Of a stretch of 64,000 nucleotides of DNA, positions 17,356-64,000 are shown piece by piece (position 1 is the first letter of the stretch; each line of letters begins with the position of its first letter). The position numbers and the translations under genes are program-made. Below the pieces are notes generated by a model. It was not told where the DNA came from. It did no database searches and saw only the letters and a list, made by a program, of their open reading frames with translations. The stretch comes from a virus. The DNA lies in IMG/VR virus record IMGVR_UViG_3300013286_000725, positions 41,824 to 105,823 of that record, one strand, 5' to 3'.

Positions 17356-18027
17356 ATGTCCGAACTAAAACATGTAGGCAGGATGAAAAATACAGGGCGT
17401 AAATGTCTTGTTGTTTTTCGTACCCTGCCAGGCGATGCATTTAGTTGTTTAATTATTCCAACAGAATCATTGCCCGATAGCTATCATGATTCACTTATCA
17501 GTCTAGTAGAATCTAATGCCGCTCAATCGACTAACGAATTTAGTGAAGTCTTGGCCCGTGCTGTATTTTCAGACGGATCCACTATGTTGCCAACTTTGCA
17601 TGTCAAAGGTTATTTGAGTAAAGTAGCCACTGACGAAGTAGAGATGACACCTAATAATCAAGCAAGTGTATTGTTAAGTGATCTTAATCAACTGATTGCA
17701 GAACAACAAGGTGTTAGTGTTCAAGATTTGGCTATTAAATCTTCGCAACCTGATCCTAATGTTGAGATTAAAGAAGTTGCCAGTGCTAAGGATATCAGTC
17801 CCAAAACTGGTAATACTGATCCATTAATAGATCAAGTGGAAGACTTTGGTCGCACAACCAGTGCAAGTGTTAATCAAGAAACGCCAGTTACTAAATTTGA
17901 TACTCCCGAAGCTGAAGCCAAATACTATCGTAGTCAGGCAGATCGATTGGCCAAGCAGGCAGCAGAAATGCGCCGCAAAGCCGAAGAAGTCTTTCCTACT
18001 AAAAAGAAAACTACTAGCGTATTGTGA
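17356..18027 (+). CDS. conserved phage protein with helical Lys/Arg-rich tail
   Basis: 223 residues in two parts: residues 1-115 form a compact domain (GRKCLVVFRTLPGDAFSCLI, EFSEVLARAVFSDGS), and 115-223 is a linker rich in Ser, Asp and Val followed by a long charged helix (AEAKYYRSQADRLAKQAAEM) likely to be a coiled coil. No catalytic motif. Overlaps the next gene by four bases. A role as a structural or replication-associated protein is possible; not assigned. Confidence 0.65.
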   Translation: MSELKHVGRMKNTGRKCLVVFRTLPGDAFSCLIIPTESLPDSYHDSLISLVESNAAQSTNEFSEVLARAVFSDGSTMLPTLHVKGYLSKVATDEVEMTPNNQASVLLSDLNQLIAEQQGVSVQDLAIKSSQPDPNVEIKEVASAKDISPKTGNTDPLIDQVEDFGRTTSASVNQETPVTKFDTPEAEAKYYRSQADRLAKQAAEMRRKAEEVFPTKKKTTSVL

Positions 18028-18344
18028 CCCCGGGGAGAGTTTTCCCTAAAGATGTAGTTGAACACTGGCCCGAGGTATTTGGGGAAATCACACTCAATGT
18101 GATCCCCCTCAAATATCTTGATTCAATTACTGTAACTTTTAAAAATAAAAAGATTTGGGAAATCAAAGTTAGCGACCAGCAAGCTCAAGAAAATTGGGAA
18201 TCATTTGAAATGAATCTCAAAGAGATGCTGAGTTCTTACGAAAGTGAGATCGACAATGTTGACTTTAAATTAGATACAGAGCGTGTCAAAAAAGACATGA
18301 TTAAAAATACCAATAATTTTTTACGAAAGAAAAAATTAAAATGA
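18024..18344 (+). CDS. conserved phage protein (MTPGRVFPKDVVEHWPEVF type)
   Basis: 106 residues from a GTG start that overlaps the previous stop. The N-terminal TPGRVFPKDVVEHWPEVFGE block is a pattern I associate with a conserved protein of T4-like aquatic phages of unknown role. A beta-rich middle (NVIPLKYLDSITVTFKNKK) and a basic C-terminus follow. Overlaps thyX by four bases. Confidence 0.65.
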   Translation: MTPGRVFPKDVVEHWPEVFGEITLNVIPLKYLDSITVTFKNKKIWEIKVSDQQAQENWESFEMNLKEMLSSYESEIDNVDFKLDTERVKKDMIKNTNNFLRKKKLK

Positions 18345-58327: not shown

Positions 58328-58812
58328 GCTAATCATACAGTTAGGGCTCGCACCGGCTAAAATCGGGTGCCGAACAGTTGAAACCTGGACTCATAGTCGC
58401 AGGGATCCGAAGTCTTGCCGCTGTAAGCAAGCACTCAATCAGTATCCTTAACAGGACCACGATCGCTTAAAACCTGCGATTTGATTGTTTGAACAGAATA
58501 CATAATAGGTAAAAAGAAGGGAGAAAAACCCTGGATTAATATATGCGACTGCGTGTGTATATTAATTGCCGTTGAATCTAAGACGGAGCTCGTGGTACTG
58601 GTCAACCGCCACTGTAACTGCTCTAACGCTAGTGTGACATTGTGCAACTCAGATAATGTTATATTTTTTAGCCCGGAAACGGGCTAAGTGTGACTGAACA
58701 ATCTAGATAATACTTAAATGCTTCGCATTAATTGTGTTCTAAGAAACAGAAAACATGTTCGAGCGCGAGCGAAGAACTGAAGAACGCAAGTTCTTCTTTA
58801 ATAAATACACAT
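58328..58812 (+). ncRNA. 485-bp structured noncoding region, possible RNA gene or leader
   Basis: No convincing gene fits here. Many stems are visible: CCTGGACT/AGTC-G-CAGG (58384-58403), CTTGC/GCAAG (58414-58431), ATCGC/GCGAT (58462-58480), TTAATATA/TATATTAA (58536-58565, extended by wobble pairs), and TTAGCCCG-GAAA-CGGGCTAA (58668-58687). Two stretches, around 58375-58431 and 58569-58622, share a layout of stem with TTGAA loop, then a variable part, then CCGC and CTGTAA. This faintly recalls the cobalamin riboswitch core, but the complete consensus is absent. Class unknown. Confidence 0.5.
58668..58796 (+). repeat. cluster of tetraloop/triloop hairpins
   Basis: Three perfect short hairpins in about 130 bp: TTAGCCCG/CGGGCTAA with loop GAAA (58668-58687), AATGC/GCATT with loop TTC (58717-58729), and GAAGAAC/GTTCTTC with loop GCAA (58779-58796). 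TTCG/CGAA pairing also surrounds 58758-58773. The last hairpin is followed by TTTAATAAATA, so it could terminate weakly and/or precede a late-type element (AATAAATA, 58800-58807). Confidence 0.55.
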
Positions 58813-60059: not shown

Positions 60060-60292
60060 TTAAATCCAGGGCAACTTAGTTGCTTTGGTTGTTTCAATAT
60101 TTTCCGTAATAATATCATTCATGATTTTACGATCTTCAAAAGAGTAAACATGAAATAGGTCATGGCTACTAACACCACCTCGCATATACCAACTGATTCT
60201 AAAAATTTCGTCTTTTAGAGCTTTGGTATGTGTTTCATACCCTTCAATAAACTTTTCTATCTCAGAGTTCGGCAGTGTTTGTAGCCTTATTC
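60060..60292 (-). CDS. -1 frame extension ORF (probable frameshift product tail)
   Basis: An open frame of about 77 codons with coding character: SEIEKFIEGYETHTKALKDE, then IFRISWYMRGGVSSHDLFHV and ENIETTKATKLPWI at the end. This looks like a conserved tail-assembly chaperone-like segment next to gp26 in T4-like phages. The frame has no ATG, GTG or TTG; only CTG, ATA or ATC could start it. It lies exactly in the -1 frame of the gp26-like gene and is entered at a slippery sequence just before that gene's stop, so translation as a fusion is more likely. Confidence 0.6.
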
Positions 60293-61099
60293 GAAAAAAT
60301 TTGATTGATCCATCGTGATAGTAGTTTTATCTTGATGATGGCAATCGGAGCATTCTACTTGTAGATCAGGCATGGCCCAGACATCTTTATTTGCCTCAAG
60401 AAAGTCTTTGATCTGTTTATATTGATCTCTGCTCATGTGACTTAACCATTCAAGTATATGTTCTTTTTCAGAAACTTTTCCATCTGGCATGTCTACAGAT
60501 TCAATACTGGCCAATAATACTTTTAATTGTATATCAGCTAATTTAGCATAGATTTCGTCTATGTATCCCTGTTTAGTTTCTTCAGTAACATTGGCCAATT
60601 GTGCTAGCATACGCTGTAGAGTAAAATTTTCTACATTAAATCCAGTAACTTCGTTGTAGTTTAATGGTCTAATATTGATGGTTAAATCGCCTAACGGTAG
60701 TCTACTGTTAAACACTTTGTCTTTGTAATTTTCAATTACAGCACCTAAATCCACATCAAAATTGTCTTCGTGCCCGCAATTAACACAGGTGTTGACAATG
60801 GTCATTTTTTCACCAAAAGTAGCCATTCTGATAGCAACTAGCAAGGTATCAGTATCTAAACTAGGAACAACTGTGGCGTCTTTAATATACGGGCAACAGG
60901 ATTCAATTAACTTGATTGATGCTTCGCCGTTAAACAGGGCGTCAGGCGTTTTCATAATGACCTCGTCCATACCAGTCATGGCAAAAATAGGCACATTACT
61001 GCTGTCGCCCTGTAAGGTTCCTTCGGGATAGAACAATCCCTTGCTGGGAAGACTGATATAAATTTTAGGTTGTCTAAAATATTTTTGTAATGGATTCAT
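60287..61099 (-). CDS. 26: baseplate hub protein gp26-like
   Basis: 270 residues (T4 gp26 is 208). Matches the T4-type baseplate family: KIYISLPSKGLFYPEGT at the N-terminus, then MTGMDEVIMKTPDALFNGEA and SCCPYIKD. Two metal-binding-like pairs, CVNCGH near residue 106 and CSDCHHQ near 253, are visible. Functions in assembling the hub. Upstream lies a late-type element shared divergently with the tape measure gene. It ends FFE-stop over a slippery run. Confidence 0.8.
   Translation of the reverse strand: MNPLQKYFRQPKIYISLPSKGLFYPEGTLQGDSSNVPIFAMTGMDEVIMKTPDALFNGEASIKLIESCCPYIKDATVVPSLDTDTLLVAIRMATFGEKMTIVNTCVNCGHEDNFDVDLGAVIENYKDKVFNSRLPLGDLTINIRPLNYNEVTGFNVENFTLQRMLAQLANVTEETKQGYIDEIYAKLADIQLKVLLASIESVDMPDGKVSEKEHILEWLSHMSRDQYKQIKDFLEANKDVWAMPDLQVECSDCHHQDKTTITMDQSNFFE
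60293..60302 (-). other. candidate -1 ribosomal frameshift site
   Basis: On the minus strand AAATTTT (60302-60296) and TTTTTTC (60299-60293) overlap. Both fit X-XXY-YYZ in the gp26 reading frame (AAT TTT TTC), four to six bases before the TAA. A -1 slip opens the downstream 77-codon frame. No clear downstream pseudoknot was seen. Confidence 0.5.
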
Positions 61100-61168: not shown

Positions 61169-64000
61169 ATGGCAAAGTTAGACAATGACGACTACACAGC
61201 GATAGGTAACGCTATTGCTAACGCTTTGGGTAAAAGCAACAGCTTTCAGGGTGGCGGACAACAAACAACAGCGGCACCCAGTGCGTCTGCGTTAGACACT
61301 AGCAGTGCTGAAAAGTTTGGCCAAAGTTTAAAGAAAGCAACTAGTGACGGAGTTGACGGGTTTGGTAATGCTGTTAAAAATTCAACTGGAACACTTGGCG
61401 AATTAAGCAAGCGTGGCCAAAACTTCAGTAATGATCTTGTAGGAATGAACACCGCGGCTGCTCATAGCCGTGTAGGATTAAATGATTTTGCAGGAGTAGT
61501 TGCTGAAAACGGCAAAGGTCTAGCAGGGCTCGGCGGGTCTGTTACCCGTGGTGCAGAAGCTTTTGGTAAGTTAAGTAAAGGATTCTTTGACAGTAGGATG
61601 GCTGATGAGCTCCAGCAGATGGGCTACAGTGCAAAAGATCTTAATCAAGTTCTAGCTATACAAGCAAGTACGCAACGATCAACACTGGGTAATGATGCTA
61701 CTAGTAGAAAAGCCAGTTACGAATCTGCCGCCAGTTTGGCCAAAGAAATGGATCTTATCAGCAAGCTAACTGGTAAGAATCGTGAAGAGCAGATGGAAGA
61801 AGCCAAGAAACGGGCTGCAGACGGACAAGTAGAAGCCAAGTTACGACTTATTGGTATTGAGCAAGGTGCTGACGCAGAGAAAGCAGCCAGAGCTAACTTT
61901 CAAGAACAATTTGCCAAAGCCGAAGCTCGCGGACAAGGACAAATGGCCAAAGAGCTGTTTGCCACAGGCACAGTGACCAGTCAAGAAGCCGCAACACAGT
62001 TTGCGTTAACGGGAGAGGCTGCTCAAAAATTAGCACAGCAAATGGATCATCTTGGCAAAGGTAATATTGAAGCCGCCAATGCCGCAAGCAAAGAAGCTGA
62101 TGCCGCCAATGCTAAAAATCAAAGAGATCCTACACTGCTAAGATTAGCCACATTAGGTTCTGCCGCAGGCGATGCCGGCATGATCATGAAGAAGAATGTT
62201 GAAGACAACATGGCACTTCATGACTCAGTAGTTGCATATGCCAAAGCAAATGGTATAGCATTAAACTCAGTAAAAGATTTTGGCAAAGCACTTGACGGTG
62301 TTAGGACTGATCTAAAGGCAAGCCAACTAGGCCAACGACAAGTGGGTAACGATGTTGCTAAAGCTGACGGTAAGTACACCGATGTTAGTGGACTCAACAG
62401 GGGAGTAGTAGCTACTAGAGTAGCTGGACAGGAAGTTGGTTCAGGTGTTGCTCAAGCAGTTGAAGCCAAAGACCAAAACGGCCGAAGTATTGCTGGGAAT
62501 TTGAATCAAGGCGGCCGAGCAGTCGAGTCTGCTATAGGTAGTTTATCTCCTAATCAAAGCCTAGGACGAACAATTGGAGAAGCAGCCGAGAAAGGTGCTG
62601 CTACAGGCGGCAAAGAAGGTGGAGCAATAGGCGGAGCAACTGCATTAACTGTTGGAGTTTTTAATAAATCAACTGACACATTTGACAGTGCTGTTAAAAC
62701 TTTTGCTATAGGGATAAAAAGTTTTGCATTTGGCGCACCAAAAACAACTCCTCCAGCGCCTGCAGTCGCACCAGCTAATGGACAAGTCCCACAACTAGCA
62801 GACGGCGGAGTTGTTACACCAAAATTAGGCGGAACAATAGTTAATGTAGGAGAAGGCGGCAAATCTGAAGCAGTTATTCCGTTAGATAAACTGCCTGGAA
62901 TGATTGGTGCCAAGACCAGTATCAGTTCATCAACACCTGCACCTGGTTACGGTATTCAAGGACAGATGGGACAAATGTCTGTGAGCATGGACCGTTCTGC
63001 ACTGAGAACAGACGACCAGAAGAAAGTGTTTGATGAGATAATGACTCTCAACACTAAATCTTCTCAAGAGAAATTAGCATCATTAAAAGCAGAGCAAGCG
63101 GCAGCTCATGCGGCAAACAAAGCATCAACTGATGCAATTGATGCAATGGAAGAGAAATTAGAAGCTGAAGGAAAAGGCTTTAAAGATCTTGCAGGCGCAC
63201 AAAAAGCTGAATATGAAGCTCTTAGAACACAACAGCGAGAATCTTATGATGCATCTGACAAAGGCAGAGAAGCAATCAAAGCTGCCGAACGAGCAGTTCA
63301 AGCTAAACAGAATTTAGAAAAATTAGGTTACGAACAAACTTTTGCCAACGAAGAACAAAAAGCAAAAATTGTTGAAGAGTCTAGCCAAAAGATCAAAGCT
63401 GATATCGCTGAAGCATTGCCAGTAAAAACCATTGAAGACAGTGCTGAAAAAACCAAAACAGTACTGACAGCACATCAAGAAACTACCTTAAAGTATGCTT
63501 ACCAAGATACCGAAGGCAAGAAGATGCAGTTGGATAATCAGAAAAATCTGATCAAAGGTGAAATCAATTCAATTGCTGAGAAGAATCAACAGATTGCAGA
63601 TATACAGAAAGAAGCAGATGGCAGAGAACTGTCTGAGAGAGAAAAGAATCGTATTGAAAGAATACAAAAAGAAATTGAAGCTGGTAAAGAAACTCTCAAA
63701 ATAAGAGAAGAAGATCTCGAAGTATATCAAAATCTTGACAAGCTGTCTGCAGAGCGTGGACTAAAAGAACAACAGGAAACTGCCAAGAAAGAAGCTGAGA
63801 TTAAAGATCAACAGATGCTGGACAAGATCAAAGCAGATGTTGCAGCCGGCGGCTCTCAAGAATTAACAGTTAACGGTAAAGCAGTGGATCCTGGTAGTGA
63901 AGAAGGTAAAACAGCCGCAGCTCAAATGAATACTGCATTAGCCGATATGGCCAAAAATATGCCCAATCCTGCTGATTTGATGTCAGGCGGCGGCACTTTG
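61169..64000 (+). CDS. tail tape measure protein (partial, runs off the window)
   Basis: At least 944 residues with no stop before the window end. It sets tail length inside the tube. Long helical, Ala/Lys/Glu-rich stretches (residues about 60-130, 170-320 and 615-900) are typical, and the segment LADGGVVTPKLGG then GEGGKSEAVIPLDKL near 550-570 is the characteristic G-E-x-G-x-EAVIPL motif of tape measure proteins. The start at 61169 follows GGAAG. Divergent from the gp26-like gene. Confidence 0.85.
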   Translation, partial: MAKLDNDDYTAIGNAIANALGKSNSFQGGGQQTTAAPSASALDTSSAEKFGQSLKKATSDGVDGFGNAVKNSTGTLGELSKRGQNFSNDLVGMNTAAAHSRVGLNDFAGVVAENGKGLAGLGGSVTRGAEAFGKLSKGFFDSRMADELQQMGYSAKDLNQVLAIQASTQRSTLGNDATSRKASYESAASLAKEMDLISKLTGKNREEQMEEAKKRAADGQVEAKLRLIGIEQGADAEKAARANFQEQFAKAEARGQGQMAKELFATGTVTSQEAATQFALTGEAAQKLAQQMDHLGKGNIEAANAASKEADAANAKNQRDPTLLRLATLGSAAGDAGMIMKKNVEDNMALHDSVVAYAKANGIALNSVKDFGKALDGVRTDLKASQLGQRQVGNDVAKADGKYTDVSGLNRGVVATRVAGQEVGSGVAQAVEAKDQNGRSIAGNLNQGGRAVESAIGSLSPNQSLGRTIGEAAEKGAATGGKEGGAIGGATALTVGVFNKSTDTFDSAVKTFAIGIKSFAFGAPKTTPPAPAVAPANGQVPQLADGGVVTPKLGGTIVNVGEGGKSEAVIPLDKLPGMIGAKTSISSSTPAPGYGIQGQMGQMSVSMDRSALRTDDQKKVFDEIMTLNTKSSQEKLASLKAEQAAAHAANKASTDAIDAMEEKLEAEGKGFKDLAGAQKAEYEALRTQQRESYDASDKGREAIKAAERAVQAKQNLEKLGYEQTFANEEQKAKIVEESSQKIKADIAEALPVKTIEDSAEKTKTVLTAHQETTLKYAYQDTEGKKMQLDNQKNLIKGEINSIAEKNQQIADIQKEADGRELSEREKNRIERIQKEIEAGKETLKIREEDLEVYQNLDKLSAERGLKEQQETAKKEAEIKDQQMLDKIKADVAAGGSQELTVNGKAVDPGSEEGKTAAAQMNTALADMAKNMPNPADLMSGGGTL

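Follow-up and report, generated by a model that had tools for sequence, protein, structure and literature searches.

A probable -1 programmed frameshift at the end of the gp26-like gene of a T4-superfamily phage, and its conservation among relatives

Introduction

The gp26-like gene considered here stops one codon after a run of thymines, and across its stop codon runs a second open reading frame in the -1 register; the question raised by this locus is by what route, if any, ribosomes come to translate that second frame, and hence whether the gene has one product or two. The sequence analysed (the window) is a 64,000-nucleotide stretch, lying at the end of a virus contig of 105,823 bases whose source is a T4-superfamily myophage. 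The features that are needed in what follows are these:

60287..61099, minus strand: gp26-like gene with short product TAC-N (270 aa), from matches to PF12322 and phrog_150 and an AlphaFold2 model
60293..60299, minus strand: slippery heptamer T_TTT_TTC, at which a -1 shift is expected, kept as TTTTTTC or TTTTTTT in 105 junctions
60296..60302, minus strand: overlapping heptamer A_AAT_TTT, present but unconserved, from the sequence and the codons of relatives
60060..60299, minus strand: -1 extension of 79 codons plus stop, the predicted C-terminal domain of TAC-NC, open in 105 of 105 junctions, with support from dN/dS and a structural model
60239..60286, minus strand: possible fold after the slip, a weak GGC/GCC hairpin plus an imperfect helix, from folding z and minimum free energy (MFE)
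61169..64000, plus strand: ORF running off the end of the contig (944+ aa), probably encoding a tape measure protein, from its position, a motif and the RaK2 annotation

Several groups of T4-like phages have reportedly kept frameshifting, the T4 group having genes 26 and 51 instead as two separate genes. Poly-T -1 frameshift signals have been described in the TAC-N genes of T4-like phages (Vladimirov, Gautam and Davidson 2022, Virology 566:9-15, as cited in PMC12846349), and some T4-like phages are described as having a short gene together with a separate, fused long gene (Vladimirov et al. 2022, as cited in PMC10885494).

The gp26-like gene and the relatives surveyed

The gp26 ORF runs from 61099 to 60290 on the minus strand and is closed by a TAA codon at 60289-60287, the slip site and the -1 ORF lying on the same strand. 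Its product matches PF12322 (T4_baseplate) with an E-value of 3.7e-19 and 69.7 bits, well above the curated cut-off of 24.5, and phrog_150 (baseplate hub) with an E-value of 9.4e-22; it contains the cysteine pairs CVNC and CSDC. No second phrog_150 match was found in the 105.8-kb contig (which may be incomplete), gp26 being the only one. Read in the mRNA sense, the gene ends TCA AAT TTT TTC GAA TAA, and the minus-strand sequence thus bears out the gene end (AAT TTT TTC GAA TAA) given in the initial annotation. That annotation had, however, appealed to a siphophage setting, while the phage is instead T4-like, as its gp26 and baseplate genes indicate, and its chaperones would be of the T4 gp26/gp51 type.

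Relatives were gathered by scanning IMG/VR with gp26 as the query (the best 80 of 141 relatives) and with the -1 peptide as the query (the best 80 of at least 582 relatives). Together with other scans and four annotated phages these gave 105 unique junctions, which form 69 clusters at 75% gp26 identity. Contigs of bacterial and archaeal genomes were searched as well and yielded two MAG contigs only, both likely to be stray phage. In one relative (L089, 3703) there is a premature stop in gp26 while the slip and the -1 domain are intact, reflecting either a sequencing error or a broken gene.

The slippery heptamer

Two overlapping heptamers, AAATTTT (60302-60296) and TTTTTTC (60299-60293), were originally proposed as slippery sequences, and both are indeed present in the X_XXY_YYZ phase of the gp26 frame, T_TTT_TTC lying one codon ahead of the TAA. 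It is only the latter that is conserved: TTTTTTC is found in 102 of the 105 unique junctions and TTTTTTT in the other 3. AAATTTT was rejected as the main slip because across the same 105 junctions the preceding codon varies, whereas the T run does not.

The codon ahead of the two Phe codons may be AAT, AGT, CAT, ACT, GAT, TAT, GGT or GCT (Asn, Ser, His, Thr, Asp, Tyr, Gly or Ala), yet it ends in T in every one of the 105 junctions; elsewhere in gp26, T makes up 62-75% of the T/C third bases for those preceding-codon pairs. Among 34 conserved gp26 columns the Phe-Phe columns are the most conserved at the codon level (TTT in 69/69 and TTC in 66/69 cluster representatives), although TTC accounts for just 21% of the other Phe codons in gp26, and Phe-Phe elsewhere is written TTTTTC in 48 of 225 cases. 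Judged by this codon usage, the slip site is conserved, across divergent relatives, beyond what coding for the protein would need.

In-phase X_XXY_YYZ heptamers are in themselves common, 125 being counted (as a measure of the chance background) in the 46 non-overlapping window ORFs of at least 100 aa. A -1 frame that runs at least 20 codons past the stop from such a heptamer was seen only at the gp26 locus and at two other loci in the window, and at the gp26 locus chance is removed as an explanation because the pattern is conserved in relatives. One of those two is the ORF 18024-18344, which has an in-phase TTTTTTA at 18317 (plus strand) close to its end; the -1 frame continues open from there into thyX, but this is probably an ordinary overlap, thyX having its own ATG at 18341.

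The -1 frame extension

In the window the open stretch of the -1 frame begins after a stop roughly ten codons upstream of the slip and extends to a TAG at 60062-60060, giving 79 sense codons counted from the first slipped TTT, 75 of them past the gp26 stop. The statement in the initial annotation that this frame lacks ATG, GTG and TTG proved to be not entirely correct, there being ATG at codons 39 and 60 and TTG at codon 76. No standard start precedes codon 39 (60185-60183), which encodes the M of WYMRGG and sits within the conserved folded domain.

The C domain lies in the -1 frame of gp26 in all 105 unique junctions, and in 102 of them it extends for 78 or 79 codons beyond the start of the slip (73, 73 and 77 in the remaining three). 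Pairwise comparison of the -1 ORFs gives a median dN/dS of 0.28, as for a sequence under purifying selection. The first codon after the slip (-1 codon 3) specifies Arg in 102/105 junctions, with all four CGN codons in use, whereas the gp26 residue that overlaps it may be V, A, G, E or D; retention of the Arg while the overlapping residue varies implies selection on the -1 reading directly after the slip. Ten junctions (L006, L019, L064, L067, L073, L076, L077, L152, L153 and L178) carry a -1 stop immediately ahead of the slip, implying that in these relatives translation must enter there by slippage, and placing the slip on TTTTTTC itself. Moreover, 47 of the 105 lack any ATG, GTG or TTG as far as -1 codon 30, counting from the -1 stop upstream. 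Taken together, the open frame, the conserved Arg, the closed frames, the missing starts and the dN/dS make a -1 slip at or within the T run the one simple way into the C domain.

The proposal of a -1 programmed frameshift is thus supported, in these 105 junctions, by phase, by conservation of the slip and by coding selection in the -1 frame. Loss of the slippery run in relatives that keep the ORF open had been named beforehand as an outcome that would speak against it; the 105 junctions were checked for this and yielded no such case.

The downstream stem

When folding z was averaged across clusters for positions from -300 to +180 relative to the slip, a clear dip was seen only at +7 to +15 (means -1.63 and -1.31), values at other positions lying between -0.7 and +0.3. 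A search was made for perfect helices with a 5' arm starting 2-16 nt after the heptamer, using a score threshold of at least 9 and eight control windows. Helices reaching this score were found in 26/69 clusters, against 0-6/69 in the control windows; the best have 10-14 pairs, and their 5' arm is typically at +5 to +7, placing the stem about 6 nt downstream of the slip. In 19 loci that share the same register there is a 14-pair stem for which 84.6% of cells are paired (a percentage inflated by selection, as these loci were chosen for having the stem), and 8 of the 14 pairs have changed on both sides, which is the stronger sign. The covariation score of this 19-locus stem was reached by 0 of 500 shuffles, and controls with a slid partner pair at 20-48%. 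RNAalifold, applied to 55 ungapped representatives, found no common pairs, because the register of the 3' arm differs among lineages; it is for this reason that the per-sequence search and the register-matched subset were used.

The window copy gives a folding z of -2.48 for the 55 nt starting at +7 and an MFE of -12.0 kcal/mol for 62 nt. The helix search did not find in it the long stem at +6 that many relatives have, inspection by eye revealed no convincing pseudoknot, and no Rfam family was matched at the slip site. No description of a covarying stem was found in the literature searched, in which Vladimirov et al. 2022 is represented by papers that cite it; the stem's conservation and the wide extent of the clade may go beyond what has been published.

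Predicted products

The predicted TAC-NC fusion would be 346 aa long, consisting of gp26 residues 1-269 followed by 77 further residues. AlphaFold2 models both parts with good confidence. The gp26 model (pLDDT 90.9) matches T4-like baseplate hub assembly proteins in BFVD with an E-value of 8.5e-23, while a fold search of the PDB with the same model found nothing; the -1 domain (pLDDT 90.5) is modelled as a short first helix, a long one, a short one and then a third long helix. There is a helix on either side of the junction, at 265-269 where the gp26 model finishes and at 2-8 where that of the -1 domain starts, so that a single helix could run across it.

Taken alone, the C domain of the window copy has no match above the cut-off in PHROGs or Pfam, and a fold search with it gave no match below an E-value of 0.001; nor does the phrog_150 match of the fusion sequence reach into it. 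The extent of phrog_150 coverage (residues 14-235 of T4 gp26, 13-280 of T4 gp51 and 4-233 of the window gp26) gives T4 gp51 the appearance of a gp26 domain joined to a C domain. Against a profile of seven gp51 proteins the C domain scores an E-value of 8e-4 with a probability of 25%, which does no more than suggest a link to the T4 gp51 C-terminus. Compared with the C-terminus of a natural in-frame gp26-C fusion in L180, it gives a profile probability of 84%. In the L180 phage (L219, G001:C1 54818-56782) a short gp26-like gene stands in tandem with an overlapping, in-frame C-domain fusion, an arrangement that is, on its gene layout, a T4-type solution without a frameshift.

Proposed mechanism and alternative explanations

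We hold with high confidence that the gp26 mRNA, by means of a -1 slip on U_UUU_UUC, yields short (270-aa) and long (346-aa) tail assembly chaperones. Most ribosomes translating gp26 would stop at the TAA at 60289-60287 and release the short chaperone of 270 aa, while a fraction would slip back by one base on U_UUU_UUC, the P-site tRNA-Phe re-pairing from UUU to UUU and the A-site tRNA-Phe from UUC to UUU. The slipped ribosomes would then continue through ...DQSNFF-RIRLQTLPNSEIEKF...WYMRGG...PWI to give the long form of 346 aa. If lambda G/GT and T4 gp26/gp51 are taken as a guide, the two forms would be tail assembly chaperones, keeping hold of the tape measure protein ahead of tail tube formation; the rate of slipping would presumably set their ratio.

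Alternatively, the C domain might be a separate protein, produced by coupled or internal initiation from a non-AUG codon (ATA 60290 or CTG 60275) or from the ATG at 60185. The -1 ORF does overlap the gp26 stop, T4 gene 26 is annotated with a second, internally started product 26', and in part of the clade (e.g. Phosso, Atu_ph07 and 121Q) there is an ATG just after the slip, at which the annotators of Phosso and 121Q begin a separate gene, implying that in such phages independent initiation may coexist. However, selection on the -1 reading begins at codon 3, ahead of any usable start, and a start at codon 39 would remove a long helix of the predicted fold; separate initiation also sits badly with the ten junctions whose -1 frame is closed up to the slip and the 47/105 that have no standard start before codon 30, and leaves both the invariant T6 run and the stem unexplained. 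We regard it as quite improbable.

A relic of a T4-type arrangement, in which a complete gene for the long form would lie elsewhere, has precedents in the separate gp26 and gp51 genes of T4 and in the tandem short and fused genes of the L180 phage, but it is very improbable in view of the single phrog_150 match in the (possibly incomplete) contig and of the purifying selection acting on the -1 ORF. As for a sequencing or assembly error within the T6 run, which would make the true gene a single in-frame fusion, homopolymer runs are certainly error-prone, and in-frame fusions do occur naturally in some phages (L180); this is nonetheless hardly credible and is refuted by conservation, the same one-base offset being present in 105 unique junctions and in the isolates Atu_ph07, Phosso, 121Q, RaK2, GAP32, Munch and P-SSM7.

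Beyond frameshifting at the gp26 locus itself, it may be that the frameshift is the ancestral means of making the two chaperone forms across a very large section of the T4 superfamily, most of it uncultivated, that it is driven by an RNA element not described before, and that T4 and the L180 lineage replaced the frameshift by gene splitting or duplication; on this broader proposal we are evenly balanced. The RNA element would have its 5' arm fixed about 6 nt after a near-invariant U_UUU_UUC, with the 3' arm and the sequence free to change.

Spread among T4-like phages

The layout of TTTTTTC followed by the -1 domain occurs in the jumbo phages 121Q, Vibrio 2.275, Atu_ph07, Phosso, RaK2, GAP32, Munch and PA5oct, and in the cyanophages P-SSM7, S-SSM6a and S-8S56 (L205, L216 and L218), while Rhizobium RHph_I34 has TTTTTTG at the equivalent site. 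In the public records of 121Q, Atu_ph07, Phosso, Vibrio 2.275, RaK2, GAP32, Munch, PA5oct and P-SSM7 the parts are annotated separately, or the C domain is started late or omitted. For P-SSM7, gp51 is annotated as a 31-aa ORF, and the -1 frame from the TTTTTTC that ends gp26 gives a longer domain, FFRIALL.... A possible different frameshift was noticed in the Thornevirus phages LIS04 and SP-15 (L201 2480-3208 and L202 2429-3169), where gp26 is followed, in the +1 (or -2) frame around a T run, by a peptide resembling the C domain (SYYIPG) and then immediately by the tape measure gene.

The neighbouring ORF and its surroundings

The unit was originally said to sit beside the tape measure gene. 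It does adjoin the 944+ aa ORF, which starts 70 bases from gp26, but the two are divergently transcribed, and the identity of the neighbour comes from a motif and from position, the ORF being unmatched in Pfam and PHROGs. It carries a C-terminal GGVV...EAVIPL motif, of a type characteristic of tape measure proteins; in RaK2 the protein at the equivalent position is annotated as similar to tape measure protein, and the divergent neighbour is conserved, lying on the opposite strand to gp26 in all 60 of the best relatives listed. The C-terminal motif and the conserved position make it probable that this ORF encodes the tape measure protein. In SP-15 and LIS04, gp26 lies between the tail tube gene and the annotated tape measure gene, which is the classical position for a chaperone.

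On the other side, at 58345-58490 (plus strand), there is a strong match to the Polynucleobacter-1 RNA (RF01718) of 87.5 bits, against a gathering threshold of 37. The same RNA is found near gp26 in the relatives L006, L056 and L194, and from these positions it looks to be phage-borne and linked to the gp26 neighbourhood; a literature phrase search for it found no paper.

Comparison with known systems and significance

The slip that separates lambda gpG from gpGT takes place on G_GGA_AAG. As is proposed for the present locus, it yields a short protein and a -1 frameshifted long one close to the gene for the tape measure protein (Xu, Hendrix and Duda 2004); unlike in lambda, the window gp26 is divergent from the tape-measure-like ORF, and its slip is T_TTT_TTC. 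T4 gp26 belongs to the same family as the window gp26 (PF12322, phrog_150), but in T4 the two forms come from separate genes on opposite strands, whereas the window phage has one gene and a frameshift, which would yield from that single gene the T4 gp51-like layout of gp26 domain plus C domain. The TAC-N/TAC-NC genes of T4-like phages, as the work of Vladimirov et al. 2022 is described in papers citing it, resemble the window locus in having a gp26-family short form with a C-terminal extension. In the TAC locus of Pseudomonas phage Adele and the Vandenendeviridae a conserved -1 frameshift likewise occurs at a T run ending TAC-N, and the C domain is routinely annotated as a hypothetical gene; these differ from the window phage in belonging to another phage family and in their slip motif, GTTTTT (PMC12846349).

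Slips that give two chaperone products have thus already been described in phages, and the gp26 locus is a well-supported further example. Its wider meaning would be that many uncultivated and jumbo T4-like phages have a two-product chaperone gene where the annotation gives simply a baseplate hub subunit, and that the small ORF beside it is unannotated or given the wrong start. Correct annotation would offer a clear test of how the ratio of the two forms controls the assembly of contractile tails, and of how T4 came to dispense with the frameshift.
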